A DNA stretch of 64,000 nt from Nitrosomonas supralitoralis (GTDB taxonomy: Bacteria; Pseudomonadota; Gammaproteobacteria; Burkholderiales; Nitrosomonadaceae): contig NZ_PXXU01000007.1 of assembly GCF_003011925.2 (NCBI RefSeq), positions 1 through 64,000 on the forward strand. The letters run 5' to 3'. Under the pieces are notes generated by a model. It worked only from the letters and a program-made list of their open reading frames with translations. It made no database searches and was not told where the DNA came from. The translations under genes were made by a program, and so were the position numbers. Shown here piece after piece: positions 18,401-24,127 of the stretch (position 1 is the first letter of the stretch; the number at the start of each line of letters is the position of its first letter).

Positions 18401-19180
18401 ATGATTCAATATTCTCATTTAAAAATACGAGTAATGGTCGCAGAAAGTTTTGAGCTTGTGCGATTGGGGTTGCGTTCATTGTTTGATAATCACGCTACCA
18501 TTCGTTTAGTTGCAGAAACTTATCAAATCGATGATTTGTTTAACTTGGCCGAACAACATCAGCCTGACGTAATCCTTCTGGATTTACTCCTGAGCAGTGA
18601 CCATTACGAAGAGCATATTACGCAATTACTGCAAGTTTGCCCGCACAGCAAAGTATTGGCTTTATCAAATCACAATAACGCACAAACTCATCTGCAAACA
18701 TTCCGTTCTGGCGCAGTGGGCGTAATCAGCAAAAACAACTCGACAGATCTGTTATTAAAGGCGATCCTTGCAATCCATACTGGGCACATCTGGTTTGATC
18801 GCAACACTATCAAGCTACTGTGGCAAGCACAATTCAATTGCGATCCCGCTCCAAACATTCAACCACAACCCGATACTCCGCTGTTCCAGCAAGTCAGATT
18901 AAGTGATAGTGAACGTCACGTTGCACATCTTGCATGTAAGGGATTGTGCGCTAAGGAAATAAGCGCGCAACTATCTATAACAGATAAGACCGTGAGAAAC
19001 CAGCTGTCAGCTATCTATAGAAAAACTGGCGTCAAGAAACAAATCGAGCTATGTCTGAAAGCCCCCTTATACAATTACTTCAAAGATCCCCATCCAGTCG
19101 GGACATCTCACCCATTTGATAAAGAGATTAAGCAAGAAGTTAAGGACAAAAACCTTCTTCCTGAAAAAAAACAAATTTGA
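18401..19180 (+). CDS. LuxR/NarL-family response regulator-like transcription factor (orphan)
   Basis: The 259-residue protein has an N-terminal receiver-like domain and a C-terminal LuxR helix-turn-helix (about residues 165-230, LSDSERHVAHLACKG then AKEISAQLSITDKTVRNQLS). In the receiver, Asp61 and Lys111 match the phosphoacceptor and switch lysine, but the usual acidic pair near residue 15 reads E-S. Mg2+ binding and phosphorylation may therefore be weakened. No histidine kinase is nearby. It is the gene directly upstream of the copper-oxidase pair in the same orientation, separated by 171 bases, and may regulate it. Confidence 0.82.
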   Translation: MIQYSHLKIRVMVAESFELVRLGLRSLFDNHATIRLVAETYQIDDLFNLAEQHQPDVILLDLLLSSDHYEEHITQLLQVCPHSKVLALSNHNNAQTHLQTFRSGAVGVISKNNSTDLLLKAILAIHTGHIWFDRNTIKLLWQAQFNCDPAPNIQPQPDTPLFQQVRLSDSERHVAHLACKGLCAKEISAQLSITDKTVRNQLSAIYRKTGVKKQIELCLKAPLYNYFKDPHPVGTSHPFDKEIKQEVKDKNLLPEKKQI

Positions 19181-19351: not shown

Positions 19352-20353
19352 ATGTTATTTCAATCCAATCGAGCTGAGGATGACATAAAGCTCATAAAAA
19401 ATACCAATATTACGAGCATGTCGCAAAGGTCGATAATAAAACGAGTTGCGGCAATATTTGCGCTTACTCTGACACTATCAACTTTGGTTGTGAATTCCAC
19501 AAGTTTTGCTGCCGGTCATATTATTCAATTGACTGCGGAAGAAACCCAGGATGATGGTTTTGGAAACAAGTTGCTGGCTTACAAAATGATAAACCACAAA
19601 GTTGATGGCGTCGATATTACATCACGCTATAGCCCGGAAGCCACCATCCCCGGCCCCACTATTGAGTTAACCGAAGGAGACACGGTTAAGATATCGATCG
19701 CGAATGCGATTCCCGGTAATAATATTTTTGTTCCCGGAATCAGCAAACAAGTCAGCATTCATGTGCATGGGGTCCATTACGATATCCTTAGCGATGGAAC
19801 ACTCAAAGTTATCAATAAAAACCTTGACGAGGGTGCAGGTGCCGGGTTTGAAGAAACATATGTCGTTTATGAATACCAATGGAACGTTGCACCTGGAACT
19901 GCTGGCACTTGGCCATACCACGACCATAATTTTGAAACCCATAATGGTTCAGAACATAAAGGACTTTTTGGAGCAATCATCGTCAACCCAATCGGCGTTC
20001 CAAGCCATGACAAGGAATATGTTCTTTATTTAGGCGACGATGCTTTCTGGGGCATGGAAATCAATGGAACCAGCAAGACTCAATCCAAGCATGGCGCCAA
20101 TCCAACATTCGCCGCAACAAAAAATTCCAATGTCAGATTTCATTTAATCGCCTTAGGTACTGACATTCACACCTTTAAGCTTAACGGCTATAAGTGGATC
20201 GATCCGGGAACTACTAATTTTATTAATCAGATTGCAATTGGTCCGCTAGAGAAACATGTTTTCAGTGTTATCGCCAAAAATAGCGCCCATTACAAAGACG
20301 ATAATTTCTCCAATAAGCTACTGGGCATGAGAGGAAAATTTCTAGTCCACTAA
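19352..20353 (+). CDS. Two-domain multicopper oxidase-like protein, domain-1 ligands only (subunit A)
   Basis: The 333-residue exported protein starts at an ATG with a strong AGGAGGG site 7-8 bases upstream. A long n-region precedes a hydrophobic core and an AFA-like cleavage site near residue 53. Cupredoxin domain 1 (about 55-215) has the MCO motifs HVHG (His137, His139) and WPYHDHN (His190, His192), which in MCOs supply half of the trinuclear copper ligands. Cupredoxin domain 2 (about 220-333) keeps the fold pattern and ends in GMRGKFLV. There, however, the usual HxH is KLN and the HCH motif is absent; only His273 matches a type 1 ligand. It is followed after 35 bases by a homologue with the opposite ligand pattern, so a heteromeric enzyme is likely (inference). 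Confidence 0.8.
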   Translation: MLFQSNRAEDDIKLIKNTNITSMSQRSIIKRVAAIFALTLTLSTLVVNSTSFAAGHIIQLTAEETQDDGFGNKLLAYKMINHKVDGVDITSRYSPEATIPGPTIELTEGDTVKISIANAIPGNNIFVPGISKQVSIHVHGVHYDILSDGTLKVINKNLDEGAGAGFEETYVVYEYQWNVAPGTAGTWPYHDHNFETHNGSEHKGLFGAIIVNPIGVPSHDKEYVLYLGDDAFWGMEINGTSKTQSKHGANPTFAATKNSNVRFHLIALGTDIHTFKLNGYKWIDPGTTNFINQIAIGPLEKHVFSVIAKNSAHYKDDNFSNKLLGMRGKFLVH

Positions 20354-20388
20354 GTAAATGTTTGGCACCTAAATAATAAGGATAGAAA

Positions 20389-23124
20389 ATGCAAGCTAGC
20401 AATATATTTAGCCCGAGAAAACTAATAGTTACGATCGTGTTTGTTGTAGTTACTCTCTTAATCTCACCGCTCGCTCTGGCCGCTGTTCATAACATTTCAC
20501 TTACAGCTGAAACCTTACCTAACGGACAGGTCGCATACGCTATGGCAGGGAATGAAGCAGTAATACCTGGACCCACCATTTTCGTAAAGAAAGGTGATAC
20601 GGTCAATGTTTCACTAACAAATAACACCGGTATCAAAATCGGGTTTAAGGTGCCTGACCTTAAGCAATCAGATTCAGGAAAAATTAATCCCGGAAAGACC
20701 AGGAGTTACAAACTAAAAGCCAGTAACGAAGGTAGCTTCGTTTATCACGGCAATAGCAATGGTAAGGAACTACTGGGTTTATTTGGCGCAATCATTGTTG
20801 ATAAAGCACATGGACCGATCGACAGTTATGTCAATGCAGACGGCAGTATCATTCCTGTCAACTCGGATGATGTCGATAAACAATTTGTTCTATTCATGGT
20901 AGGTTCAACTTTCTGGGGAACCGAAATCTCCGGGGATGGTATACAGCAGAAACCACTCTGGGCGAATCCTGATCCTGGCGCGATTGAGAATAACATTGTA
21001 CGTTTTCACATCTTATCAATAGGGCCCGGGCACACCTTTCATCTACATGCACATCGCTGGCTAAAAAAAGATACCAGCGAAGTGATTGATGTCAAATTGC
21101 TAAAAGAAAAAACAGATACTCATTCCTTTACCGTCAAGGCAGGCACGGGCGTCGGTACTGGAAGCTGGCAATATCATTGCCATTTGATGTCTCATATGGA
21201 AGCAGGTATGCATGGTAGTTTCAAGGTTGATCCAATCGGAGGCGATGGGGCCAGTGTAGTAGGCGCATCACCTTACGGCCGAATTTTACTCGGCACGAAA
21301 GATGAGCCAGGCTTGGTAACATTTGAAATAACCGATGAGCCGGCCAGTTGGTTTAGAAGCGCTCGGGGGGATGCTATTATTGGTCTACCGCTTGACATCA
21401 AAACTAAATCATTGGAAGTAATTGCTCCCGGTAGTAGCGTCAACTTTATCATGTCGGATACGAATGGAGTACATACGATGAGTACACTGCTATGGCCTAC
21501 AGGTGCACACCATATGCCATTTACTCAAACCAGTGCCTATAAGGGCGGTGGTATCGTCAAACTGGATACACCGGGATTGTACGTATTCACCTGCAAAGTA
21601 CATCCCTATATGTTCGGGGCAGTCATAGTCGATGATCCTGATACTAATGGACTTGATTTAGGTAACCCGGCACAAGAGTTTAAAATTGATCTTGTAACAG
21701 GTATTCAAGGTCTTCCCACCAACAGTGATCTGGCGATTCGGTTACTAAGAATTTTTTTTGTCGCCACCTCTCCTGTTAATTGGCAAGATTATTCTTCCGG
21801 ATTATGGAATGTAAGATTTCCAACAATTCCTGTCAGAATTTCAGGCGAACCCTCTGGTGGTATTCGGGACGGCGGATTCGCTGCTTCACTGAGTATTCTT
21901 AATGTGGTAGACGCGCCGCTTGCAGCGCCGATTCCACCTTTGACTCCAGGTGTCGGAGAAGTATGGGTCAATACTCAATTTGAAAAAACTTCAGGTAAAA
22001 CAAAACCAGGAACCATTACAGTATTGGATGCTGAAACCTGGCAGATCAAACGTAAAATTGCATTACCTGAAATTAACATGAATAATCCGCATAATATGTG
22101 GAGTAACCGAGATCAGTCAATTATCTTCCAGACGCAATGGTTTGATAACAAATTGACTCTGATTAAACGTGAAAATGGAAAATTAATCAAAAATATTCAG
22201 GTCGGAAATTCGCCATCACACGTAATGACGCAACCCAGTAATGATGACATTACGATAGCAATCAACGGCGAAAACGGCATTATGGTTATTCCGGCAGGAA
22301 CAACGACAATCAGTAAAATGATGCCAACACAAGCTCTTGGACATACATCTGCCAATCCGCATGGACATTGGATTAGTTCAGACGGGAGAATCGTAACGCC
22401 CAATATCAATACCGACGATGTAGGAATTTACACTGCTAACGGCACCATAGAACACCGAACGGCCATAGGAAATAAAGCTCCAGGCGCTCATCCTATTGCT
22501 ATCGGTTTGATGCCGGATGCCAGCAAAGCTTACGCATCCAATTTATTGCATCACACTGTAAGTGTGGTGAATGGAGATACGGGAGCTTTATTGAAAACGA
22601 TCGATCTGATCGCTGACTATAATCCGATAGCTGGAACTTTTGCCGATAATGATGGCAATGGAAACATTGCTGTAGGTGTGCTTCCTATTCAGATCCCTGT
22701 TTCGCCGGATGGTAAAGCAGCCGTAGTGGCAGCCACTGGTGGGCAAATTGTTATCATCGATACAAAGACGGATACCATCGTCAAGATGCTGCCTTGTGAT
22801 CCAGGTTGTCATGGAGCAAATTTTGGTGCCAAACAGGGTGGCGGCTACTATGCCTATGTTACAAGCAAGTTTTCTAACCGCATTATCGTGGTTGATGTAG
22901 ACCCGAATGGTGACGGTGATTTATCGGATGCGACAATAGCAGGCGACATCTCTATGGTAGCGGATGCAAGTGTTGCCAAAGATGACGCTATCAGCAGCTT
23001 GGCTGGATTTGGTGGTCAGGGAATACTCGCTGTTCCCAATGTATATAATGGTTGGGTGCAAAACCTGCCAGAAGATTGGAAAGCCGGCTTGACTGCCGCA
23101 CAGAAAAATCCAATCGGAGACTAA
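20389..23124 (+). CDS. Multicopper oxidase-like protein with third cupredoxin domain and C-terminal beta-propeller (subunit B)
   Basis: The 911-residue exported protein has a signal peptide (hydrophobic about 12-30, cleavage near LALAA). Cupredoxin domain 1 (about 35-140) is homologous to that of the upstream gene, but HVHG is replaced by FKVP and only His120 of the second motif remains. Domain 2 (about 160-282) has intact HTFHLHAH (His215, 218, 220) and HCHLMSHMEAGM (His263, Cys264, His265, His269, Met274), a full type 1 site plus four trinuclear histidines. A third cupredoxin (about 335-415) has His362 and TCKVHPYM (Cys402, His405, Met408). Residues about 525-890 are YVTN-like beta-propeller repeats, as in NosZ or cd1-type proteins. 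Substrate is unknown. It is probably co-transcribed with subunit A. Confidence 0.8.
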   Translation: MQASNIFSPRKLIVTIVFVVVTLLISPLALAAVHNISLTAETLPNGQVAYAMAGNEAVIPGPTIFVKKGDTVNVSLTNNTGIKIGFKVPDLKQSDSGKINPGKTRSYKLKASNEGSFVYHGNSNGKELLGLFGAIIVDKAHGPIDSYVNADGSIIPVNSDDVDKQFVLFMVGSTFWGTEISGDGIQQKPLWANPDPGAIENNIVRFHILSIGPGHTFHLHAHRWLKKDTSEVIDVKLLKEKTDTHSFTVKAGTGVGTGSWQYHCHLMSHMEAGMHGSFKVDPIGGDGASVVGASPYGRILLGTKDEPGLVTFEITDEPASWFRSARGDAIIGLPLDIKTKSLEVIAPGSSVNFIMSDTNGVHTMSTLLWPTGAHHMPFTQTSAYKGGGIVKLDTPGLYVFTCKVHPYMFGAVIVDDPDTNGLDLGNPAQEFKIDLVTGIQGLPTNSDLAIRLLRIFFVATSPVNWQDYSSGLWNVRFPTIPVRISGEPSGGIRDGGFAASLSILNVVDAPLAAPIPPLTPGVGEVWVNTQFEKTSGKTKPGTITVLDAETWQIKRKIALPEINMNNPHNMWSNRDQSIIFQTQWFDNKLTLIKRENGKLIKNIQVGNSPSHVMTQPSNDDITIAINGENGIMVIPAGTTTISKMMPTQALGHTSANPHGHWISSDGRIVTPNINTDDVGIYTANGTIEHRTAIGNKAPGAHPIAIGLMPDASKAYASNLLHHTVSVVNGDTGALLKTIDLIADYNPIAGTFADNDGNGNIAVGVLPIQIPVSPDGKAAVVAATGGQIVIIDTKTDTIVKMLPCDPGCHGANFGAKQGGGYYAYVTSKFSNRIIVVDVDPNGDGDLSDATIAGDISMVADASVAKDDAISSLAGFGGQGILAVPNVYNGWVQNLPEDWKAGLTAAQKNPIGD

Positions 23125-23755: not shown

Positions 23756-24127
23756 ATGACAAGTCAACCAAAAATAAAAGTGTATTACAACTCGGCCTGT
23801 CCGGTATGCAAAGCTGGAATTGAAGCTCAGATGGACAAAGAAAGCCGTTGTGAAATCAAGTGGAACGATATTCACACACATCGCGCGCTTATTTCAGAGA
23901 TCAACGCTGATCTTGAGTTTGTTCGCGAGCGATTGCATGTTATTGATGAATCAGGAAATCTTCATGTTGGTTTCGATGCTTTCTTGGCCATCTGGCGAGC
24001 ATCTGCGCATGAACGCTGGAAAGCGAAGGTGCTGGGAATTCCGGTTGTCAGACAACTGTGCACTTTGGGCTACAATCTATTTGCAGCTGCGCTCTATCGC
24101 TGGAATAAAGCAAAAAAGCATTGGTAG
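23756..24127 (+). CDS. DCC-family thiol-disulfide oxidoreductase-like protein (DUF393)
   Basis: The 123-residue protein opens with YYNSACPVCKAGIE (residues 10-23), the DxxCPxC-type signature of the DCC/DUF393 family, here with N-S-A in place of the first acidic position. Members have a thioredoxin-like fold and a CxxC pair, and there is no signal peptide. It lies 630 bases beyond the copper-oxidase pair and converges on gatB, so it is probably a separate transcript. The role is unknown; thiol redox chemistry is a family-based guess. Confidence 0.8.
   Translation: MTSQPKIKVYYNSACPVCKAGIEAQMDKESRCEIKWNDIHTHRALISEINADLEFVRERLHVIDESGNLHVGFDAFLAIWRASAHERWKAKVLGIPVVRQLCTLGYNLFAAALYRWNKAKKHW

Follow-up and report, generated by a model that had tools for sequence, protein, structure and literature searches.

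Two adjacent genes of Nitrosomonas supralitoralis probably encode the complementary halves of a split two-domain multicopper oxidase

The first 64,000 nucleotides of contig NZ_PXXU01000007.1 (forward strand) in the draft assembly GCF_003011925.2 of Nitrosomonas supralitoralis, hereafter called the window, contain two adjacent genes for copper oxidase homologs, which we name A and B. Both lie on the plus strand with a spacing of 35 bases, and the N-termini of both proteins, as read from the sequence, are hydrophobic and export-like. An earlier reading of this DNA, here called the original prediction, proposed that each protein has a homologous pair of cupredoxin domains and that the copper ligands of one multicopper active site are divided between the two. 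Its open reading frames (ORFs), motifs and residue numbers were reproduced when the sequence was read again (table 1). The best matches of both proteins among solved structures were two-domain (SLAC-type) laccases (E-value 1e-22 for A and 8.6e-24 for B), in agreement with the proposed domain pair. The Pfam family Cu-oxidase_3 scored above its cut-off in both proteins, and Cu-oxidase_2 only in B. By these sequence comparisons, A and B are relatives of type B two-domain multicopper oxidases (MCOs), the group of SLAC.

The ligand loss described in the original prediction is found at the aligned SLAC positions: A keeps the domain-1 half of the trinuclear site and has lost the domain-2 half, whereas B shows the reverse. 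Jointly, the two proteins hold the eight trinuclear His and a type 1 site, and the ligand columns of our alignments agree with this count. In type B enzymes both trinuclear half-sites are on one polypeptide, which is the case neither for A nor for B; the type 1 ligands, which type B enzymes carry in domain 2, are found there in B, and A has no full set of them, as its Cys is gone. Type 1 ligands in domain 1, which would indicate NirK or type C enzymes, were not found, as there is no Cys at the WPYHDH motif of A or the VYHGN motif of B. Domain 1 of B did match NirK models with an E-value of 2.5e-11, at 43.5 bits and far under the cut-off of 296.

Table 1. Features of the A/B locus and its neighbors, in positions of the window
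Feature	Position	Strand	Remark
NarL/LuxR-type response regulator	18401-19180	+	upstream of A
Gene A	19352-20353	+	333 aa; SLAC-like two-domain cupredoxin protein, predicted to be exported; would provide the domain-1 part of the trinuclear cluster
A domain 1 HVHG (His137, His139)	19760-19771	+	trinuclear ligands retained
A Tyr143 and Asp148	19778-19795	+	equivalents of SLAC Tyr108/Asp113 (second shell); present in A, absent in B
A domain 1 WPYHDHN (His190, His192)	19910-19930	+	trinuclear ligands retained
A domain 2 HTFKLN (SLAC HTFHLH)	20168-20185	+	two trinuclear ligands gone
A domain 2 KDD (SLAC HCH)	20294-20302	+	type 1 Cys and two trinuclear His gone
Gene B	20389-23124	+	911 aa; predicted to be exported; SLAC-like domains 1-2, third cupredoxin and beta-propeller; would provide the domain-2 part of the trinuclear cluster and the type 1 site
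B domain 1 FKVP (SLAC HVHG)	20644-20655	+	two trinuclear ligands gone
B domain 1 YHGN (SLAC YHDH)	20743-20754	+	second His gone
B domain 2 HTFHLHAHRW	21031-21060	+	type 1 His215 and trinuclear His218/His220 retained
B Asp234	21088-21090	+	equivalent of SLAC Asp259, located by residue count from His236 of the 3tas stretch
B domain 2 HCHLMSHMEAGM	21175-21210	+	trinuclear His263/His265 and type 1 Cys264, His269, Met274 retained
B third cupredoxin, about residues 311-417	21319-21639	+	own type 1 ligand set His362, Cys402, His405, Met408 (FTCKVHPYM)
B beta-propeller, YVTN/YncE type, about residues 520-890	21946-23058	+	matches of domain profiles
B propeller His568, His611, His658, His808 (codons)	22090-22092, 22219-22221, 22360-22362, 22810-22812		
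DCC1-like thiol-disulfide oxidoreductase gene	23756-24127		downstream of B

A scan of genome contigs retained the best 80 of 97 related loci, which came from Nitrosomonas, Nitrosospira, Nitrosovibrio, methanotrophs, ammonia-oxidizing archaea and some unresolved metagenome-assembled genomes (MAGs). A B-type frame, partial in some cases, adjoins A in 53 of the 54 loci L010-L063, the exception being L032. Alignments A3 and A5, in which MAFFT had set A rows or B rows on the wrong half, were discarded in favor of A4 and A6. The fragments L031_A_7690, L031_B_7979 and L030_B_7962 were left out before the ligands were counted. The resulting 59 A and 56 B bacterial units include those of the window and the paralogs in its own genome. 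Among the 12 ligand columns, the four domain-1 His are present in all 59 A units, and a single His occurs at the four domain-2 trinuclear positions of all these units together, at the last position. The type 1 Cys is found in no A unit (Asp stands there in 50/59). The domain-1 HxH occurs in none of the 56 B units; a lone His stands at the third position of domain 1 in 31 of them. All eight ligands of domain 2, including the type 1 His, Cys, His and Met, are each present in 55 or 56 of the B units, the exception being the frameshifted B of locus L023.

Pairs were scored as complementary if A had the four domain-1 His and no trinuclear His or Cys in domain 2, and B had all eight domain-2 ligands and neither the HxH nor the fourth His in domain 1; neither the type 1 His in A nor the third position of B domain 1 entered the score. 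On a per-locus count, complementarity was found in 59 of 61 pairs (the A genes of L043, L032 and L031, which have no B unit, were left out), and the other two are L023, with its frameshifted B, and L016, with one stray His in A. An identical split was seen in five archaeal A-B pairs and then in four more. The ligand loss is therefore conserved in orthologs, paralogs and archaea, as a test named in the original prediction required, and on this comparison of sequences the complementary pattern is not due to chance. All 12 ligands were found together in 16 single proteins of methanotrophs and unresolved gammaproteobacterial MAGs and, in archaea, in two single proteins and three single-ORF proteins.

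The residues around the ligands follow the same division. According to PMC10539750, the trinuclear site of SLAC is flanked by Tyr108, Asp113 and Asp259, the first and last of which share a hydrogen-bond network. At the Tyr108 position, 58 of the 59 bacterial A units and no B unit have Tyr, the Asp113 equivalent is Asp in all 59 A units and a gap in B, and the Asp259 equivalent is Asp in all 56 B units vs. 4/59 A units. Five archaeal pairs match this second-shell split. The only cause of this pattern known to us is a site shared between A and B.

The window pair is not the only one in its genome. A Cu-oxidase_3 search of the 3.75 Mb draft genome gave matches on contigs C214 and C169, among others, and both of these represent complete A-B pairs with the same split as in the window (47-48% identity to the window protein for the A paralogs and 57-62% for the B paralogs). 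Beyond these three pairs, two more genes in the genome have Cu-oxidase_3 matches. The original prediction mentioned neither the two paralogous pairs nor the third cupredoxin and the beta-propeller of B. A stand-alone cupredoxin-propeller paralog of the C-terminal part of B (613 aa) is also present on the minus strand of another contig, without an MCO neighbor (L120:3368-5209, G000:C161).

To see whether the two genes occur separately, we analyzed their distribution across 125 genomes of Nitrosomonadaceae. A was detected in 72 of them, not counting weak matches in three genomes (G066, G094 and G114), and, among the matches listed, a B that reaches into domain 2 was detected in the same 72; in four of these (G012, G033, G065 and G092) B is partial or broken. 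No genome has A without B among the matches listed. The genome of Nitrosomonas europaea (G506) shows one pair. Because these genomes are related, a chance probability for the co-occurrence is not meaningful. A stand-alone cupredoxin-propeller paralog was observed in at least 52 of the 125 genomes, at least 13 of which lack A-B; the start of this gene is missing in G039 and G061, and in G060 there is a fragment of the propeller side that could not be classified, with no A. In an archaeal class represented by 150 genomes, five have both a split A and a split B (G492, G494, G578, G605 and G619), and fragments in G616 were left unclassified. Solitary homologs, which would speak against a pair, were seen in two archaeal cases, described below. 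A link of the family to copper monooxygenases was only partly borne out: among 369 class genomes, the cupredoxin-propeller was found in four, AmoA in ten and both in two. The AmoA search gave no match in the draft genome studied here, nor in G146.

The original prediction suggested modeling the A-B complex. We used a joined chain from Nitrosomonas oligotropha Nm75 (L024), in which the stop between A and B was read as one serine. AlphaFold2 gave a pTM of 0.80 and a mean pLDDT of 80.9 for A plus domains 1-3 of B (776 aa, 41 rows), with stretches of A domain 1 (residues 119-126 and 142-165) at pLDDT below 50, and a pTM of 0.83 and a mean pLDDT of 87.3 for A plus domains 1-2 of B (590 aa, 78 rows). 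As A and B placed independently would give a pTM of about 0.5 by our own estimate, these values suggest that the two are placed together confidently. If domain 2 of A lay against domain 1 of B, the four domains should fit onto four successive domains of ceruloplasmin or factor V/VIII. In a Foldseek search, TM-scores per query length were 0.31-0.37 for these proteins and 0.34-0.37 for one SLAC chain, and the best among the matches listed was ascorbate oxidase (0.43), whose trinuclear site is located between the first and last domain. The Foldseek result, which gave no residue ranges for the model, disfavors a contact of A domain 2 with B domain 1 and fits, without proof, the contact of A domain 1 with B domain 2. 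When mutual information was computed for 65 pairs, the combination of A domain 1 and B domain 2 accounted for 27 of the 50 highest-ranking inter-protein pairs (1.78-fold); the rest are domain 2-domain 2 (14), domain 1-domain 1 (5) and A domain 2-B domain 1 (4, 0.40-fold). For the complex, the outcome is thus a confident joint placement, with an indirect argument from Foldseek against the other SLAC-like interface.

The most reasonable hypothesis is that A and B are two obligate subunits of one secreted, heteromeric split MCO, to which we assign a probability of roughly 0.8. The starting point of the original prediction, that known two-domain MCOs have the trinuclear site at a subunit interface, agrees with PMC13151041, in which the cluster of type B enzymes is described as held jointly by domain 1 of a monomer and domain 2 of its neighbor. 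Applied to the pair, this arrangement would give one complete site, built from A domain 1 and B domain 2. The former would supply four His and the equivalents of Tyr108 and Asp113, and the latter the other four His as well as the type 1 copper and the equivalent of Asp259, so that the sole complete site would lie at the contact of the two domains. The conserved split, the co-occurrence and the joined-chain model favor a heteromer with A domain 1 facing B domain 2, as first proposed. Very probably, A and B must join to give a working oxidase, and neither subunit would be active alone.

Electrons would enter at the type 1 copper of B and travel along the HCH bridge to the cluster that B forms with A, where O2 would be reduced to water; the type 1 copper of the third cupredoxin of B may perhaps serve as an upstream relay. 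SLAC-type rings have three subunits, and therefore A2B or AB2 fits better than the A3B3 complex initially suggested. The remaining contacts of such a ring would be empty, so that an A2B or AB2 ring would have a single site. This number of sites, the exact interface, the path of the electrons, and the copper content and activity of the pair are all features that we infer.

Several observations weigh against this hypothesis. One archaeal B with the domain-2 ligands (L141:2058-5210, G494:C14) has no adjacent A; its host genome also contains two full A-B pairs. A truncated archaeal B (L146, G647) occurs without a split A. Domain 2 of A still has the type 1 His in 52/59 units and the Met in 55/59, without the Cys, which is unexplained. 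The AlphaFold2 model is one joined chain and not a multimer run, so the convergence of the A and B ligands is a prediction, and the Foldseek argument is tempered by other three-domain oxidases (CotA, 8z5b and 9bd5), which reached only 0.32-0.33 among the same matches listed. The mutual information signal is weak, with about 49 effective sequences, and B domain 2 is in excess with both domains of A. As the SLAC ring needs three subunits, A and B may combine in more than one ratio, and the copper content and oxidase activity of the bacterial pair are predictions.

A different possibility is that A and B do associate while their His halves bind other coppers, either for storage or as mononuclear type 2 sites, in a copper-binding or electron-transfer complex that has no trinuclear O2-reducing site. 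The two type 1 ligand sets of B could carry electrons in such a complex, the oxidase activity of A-B is itself a deduction, and a role in copper acquisition has been discussed for archaeal MCOs in the accessible part of PMC7785015. However, an exact complement of eight His would then be superfluous, and the equivalents of Tyr108, Asp113 and Asp259 are retained in the matching halves, so we consider this explanation unlikely. It is more improbable still that the two proteins work independently of each other, with A a relic or chaperone and B a propeller-bearing redox protein with type 1 copper, the complement being a by-product of relaxed selection after duplication. The orphan archaeal B and the stand-alone cupredoxin-propeller genes in genomes lacking A-B could be cited for it; yet each retained half is complete in nearly all pairs, four His of B are surplus to the needs of a type 1 site, and A was never listed without B. 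Finally, A domain 1 might have another MCO of the cell as its partner, the operon pairing being incidental, and three pairs and two further Cu-oxidase_3 genes in one genome could indeed cross-pair, but this is highly improbable given the shared distribution of A and B and the fact that their paralogous lineages branch in step (L008, L009 and both tandem pairs of L045).

The split MCO that we favor shares with type B enzymes (SLAC and two-domain laccases; PDB 3tas, 9ix9 and 8aip) the motifs, the domain-2 type 1 site, the half-sites and the Tyr108/Asp113/Asp259 set. It differs in that those enzymes are homotrimers with both half-sites in each subunit, whereas A and B have one half each and B has two extra domains. 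Its direct relatives, with the same domains and gene order, are the intact oxidase of methanotrophs with a separate cupredoxin-propeller gene (e.g., L071 and L084) and the single-ORF form of some Nitrosopumilaceae and Cenarchaeum (L087-L089), both of which, unlike A and B, have all 12 ligands in one two-domain unit. Ceruloplasmin and other six-domain oxidases are similar in that their six domains form a ring with a single trinuclear site, located where the first domain meets the last, although theirs is one fused chain. By analogy, the pair might be an unfused counterpart of ceruloplasmin: an A2B/AB2 ring with exactly one trinuclear site, shaped by the complementary decay of its subunits after duplication. 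It would receive electrons from a third type 1 copper, be coupled to a propeller that may bind metal, and have passed between ammonia oxidizers of the bacteria and archaea on account of a role in their copper-monooxygenase metabolism, for instance the oxidation of a nitrogen intermediate. Taken as a whole, this picture is speculative and rather doubtful.

MCO4 and the type C archaeal enzymes, such as that of N. maritimus (PDB 9cck, which we take to be Nmar_1354), likewise combine a two-domain MCO with an extra cupredoxin domain. They have complete copper centers of their own, and their matches to A and B (E-values 5e-4 and 4e-5, respectively) are much weaker than those of SLAC types. The extra domain of MCO4 and its position in a separate lineage are described in the available text of PMC7785015, and the two-domain MCOs of N. 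viennensis are classed as type C in that of PMC11561398. MCO4, considered as the closest archaeal relative, was ruled out on account of its separate lineage and type C affiliation.

A closer archaeal parallel is MCO3 (NFRAN_2029/2030), an adjacent pair that, in the accessible part of PMC12448741, has the same order with ferredoxin and ABM genes as locus L152. In L152, from a 2.84 Mb archaeal genome (G578), B and A are followed by 4Fe-4S ferredoxin and ABM genes on the other strand. From this order, the two MCO3 copies very probably correspond to B and A, so that NFRAN_2029/2030 is probably the archaeal A-B pair, with G578 not confirmed as N. franklandianus. MCO3 is presented in that part of PMC12448741 as two copies of one type, and a split site is not mentioned there. 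Among the papers listed for open-access PMC text, none looked relevant to a split or heteromeric two-domain oxidase, and publication elsewhere is possible.

To investigate the origin of the split, a tree of 83 two-domain units was built with the ligand columns removed. Bacterial and archaeal A are sisters (support 99/96), as are bacterial and archaeal B (98/93), and the intact bacterial oxidases form one clade. The simplest reading of this tree is that the split took place once and that the complete pair was then transferred between bacteria and archaea, in either direction. A separate cupredoxin-propeller frame adjoins the intact bacterial oxidase in 15 of 16 loci. This arrangement suggests that an ancestral oxidase gene was duplicated, that one copy was fused to the cupredoxin-propeller gene, and that the two copies then decayed in complement, losing opposite halves.

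Candidates for a natural A-B fusion (L087-L089) proved to be an intact two-domain oxidase fused to the cupredoxin-propeller part and not A plus B. Together with L145, L147, L149 and L150, they are single archaeal ORFs with this composition, that is, the unsplit version. Two intact oxidases, L083:6667-7728 (labeled Gammaproteobacteria) and L085:6770-7831 (labeled Methylocystaceae), are identical over the compared columns, and the L083 contig may be misbinned. A divergent winged-helix regulator is located upstream of the intact oxidase in six loci (e.g., L070:702-1349); the C-terminal part of the one such sequence inspected is cysteine-rich.

In the B propeller, His568, His611, His658 and His808 and Cys803/Cys807 are invariant in 11 relatives, and the first three His follow one another at a spacing of 43-47 residues. 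It is conceivable that the propeller funnel contains a putative metal site. Upstream of the pair, one or two NarL/LuxR-type response regulators are present, and this cluster was found in 27 of the 80 fetched loci. A gene equal in length to the DCC1-like gene downstream of B occupies that place in L011 and L012. The neighboring genes of the fetched loci included regulators and gave no hint of a substrate.

If our hypothesis is true, A and B would be a natural MCO whose catalytic cluster exists only in the heteromer. The intact form in methanotrophs, the single-ORF form in some Nitrosopumilaceae and the split form in ammonia-oxidizing bacteria and Nitrososphaerales are all found in sequence databases, and because the three coexist, the step from a three-site homomer to a one-site heteromer would be directly testable. 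Genes that are strongly induced in archaeal biofilms would be reinterpreted as two subunits of one enzyme. The finding would also be a warning for annotation, in that the motif losses in A and B should not be taken for pseudogenization.

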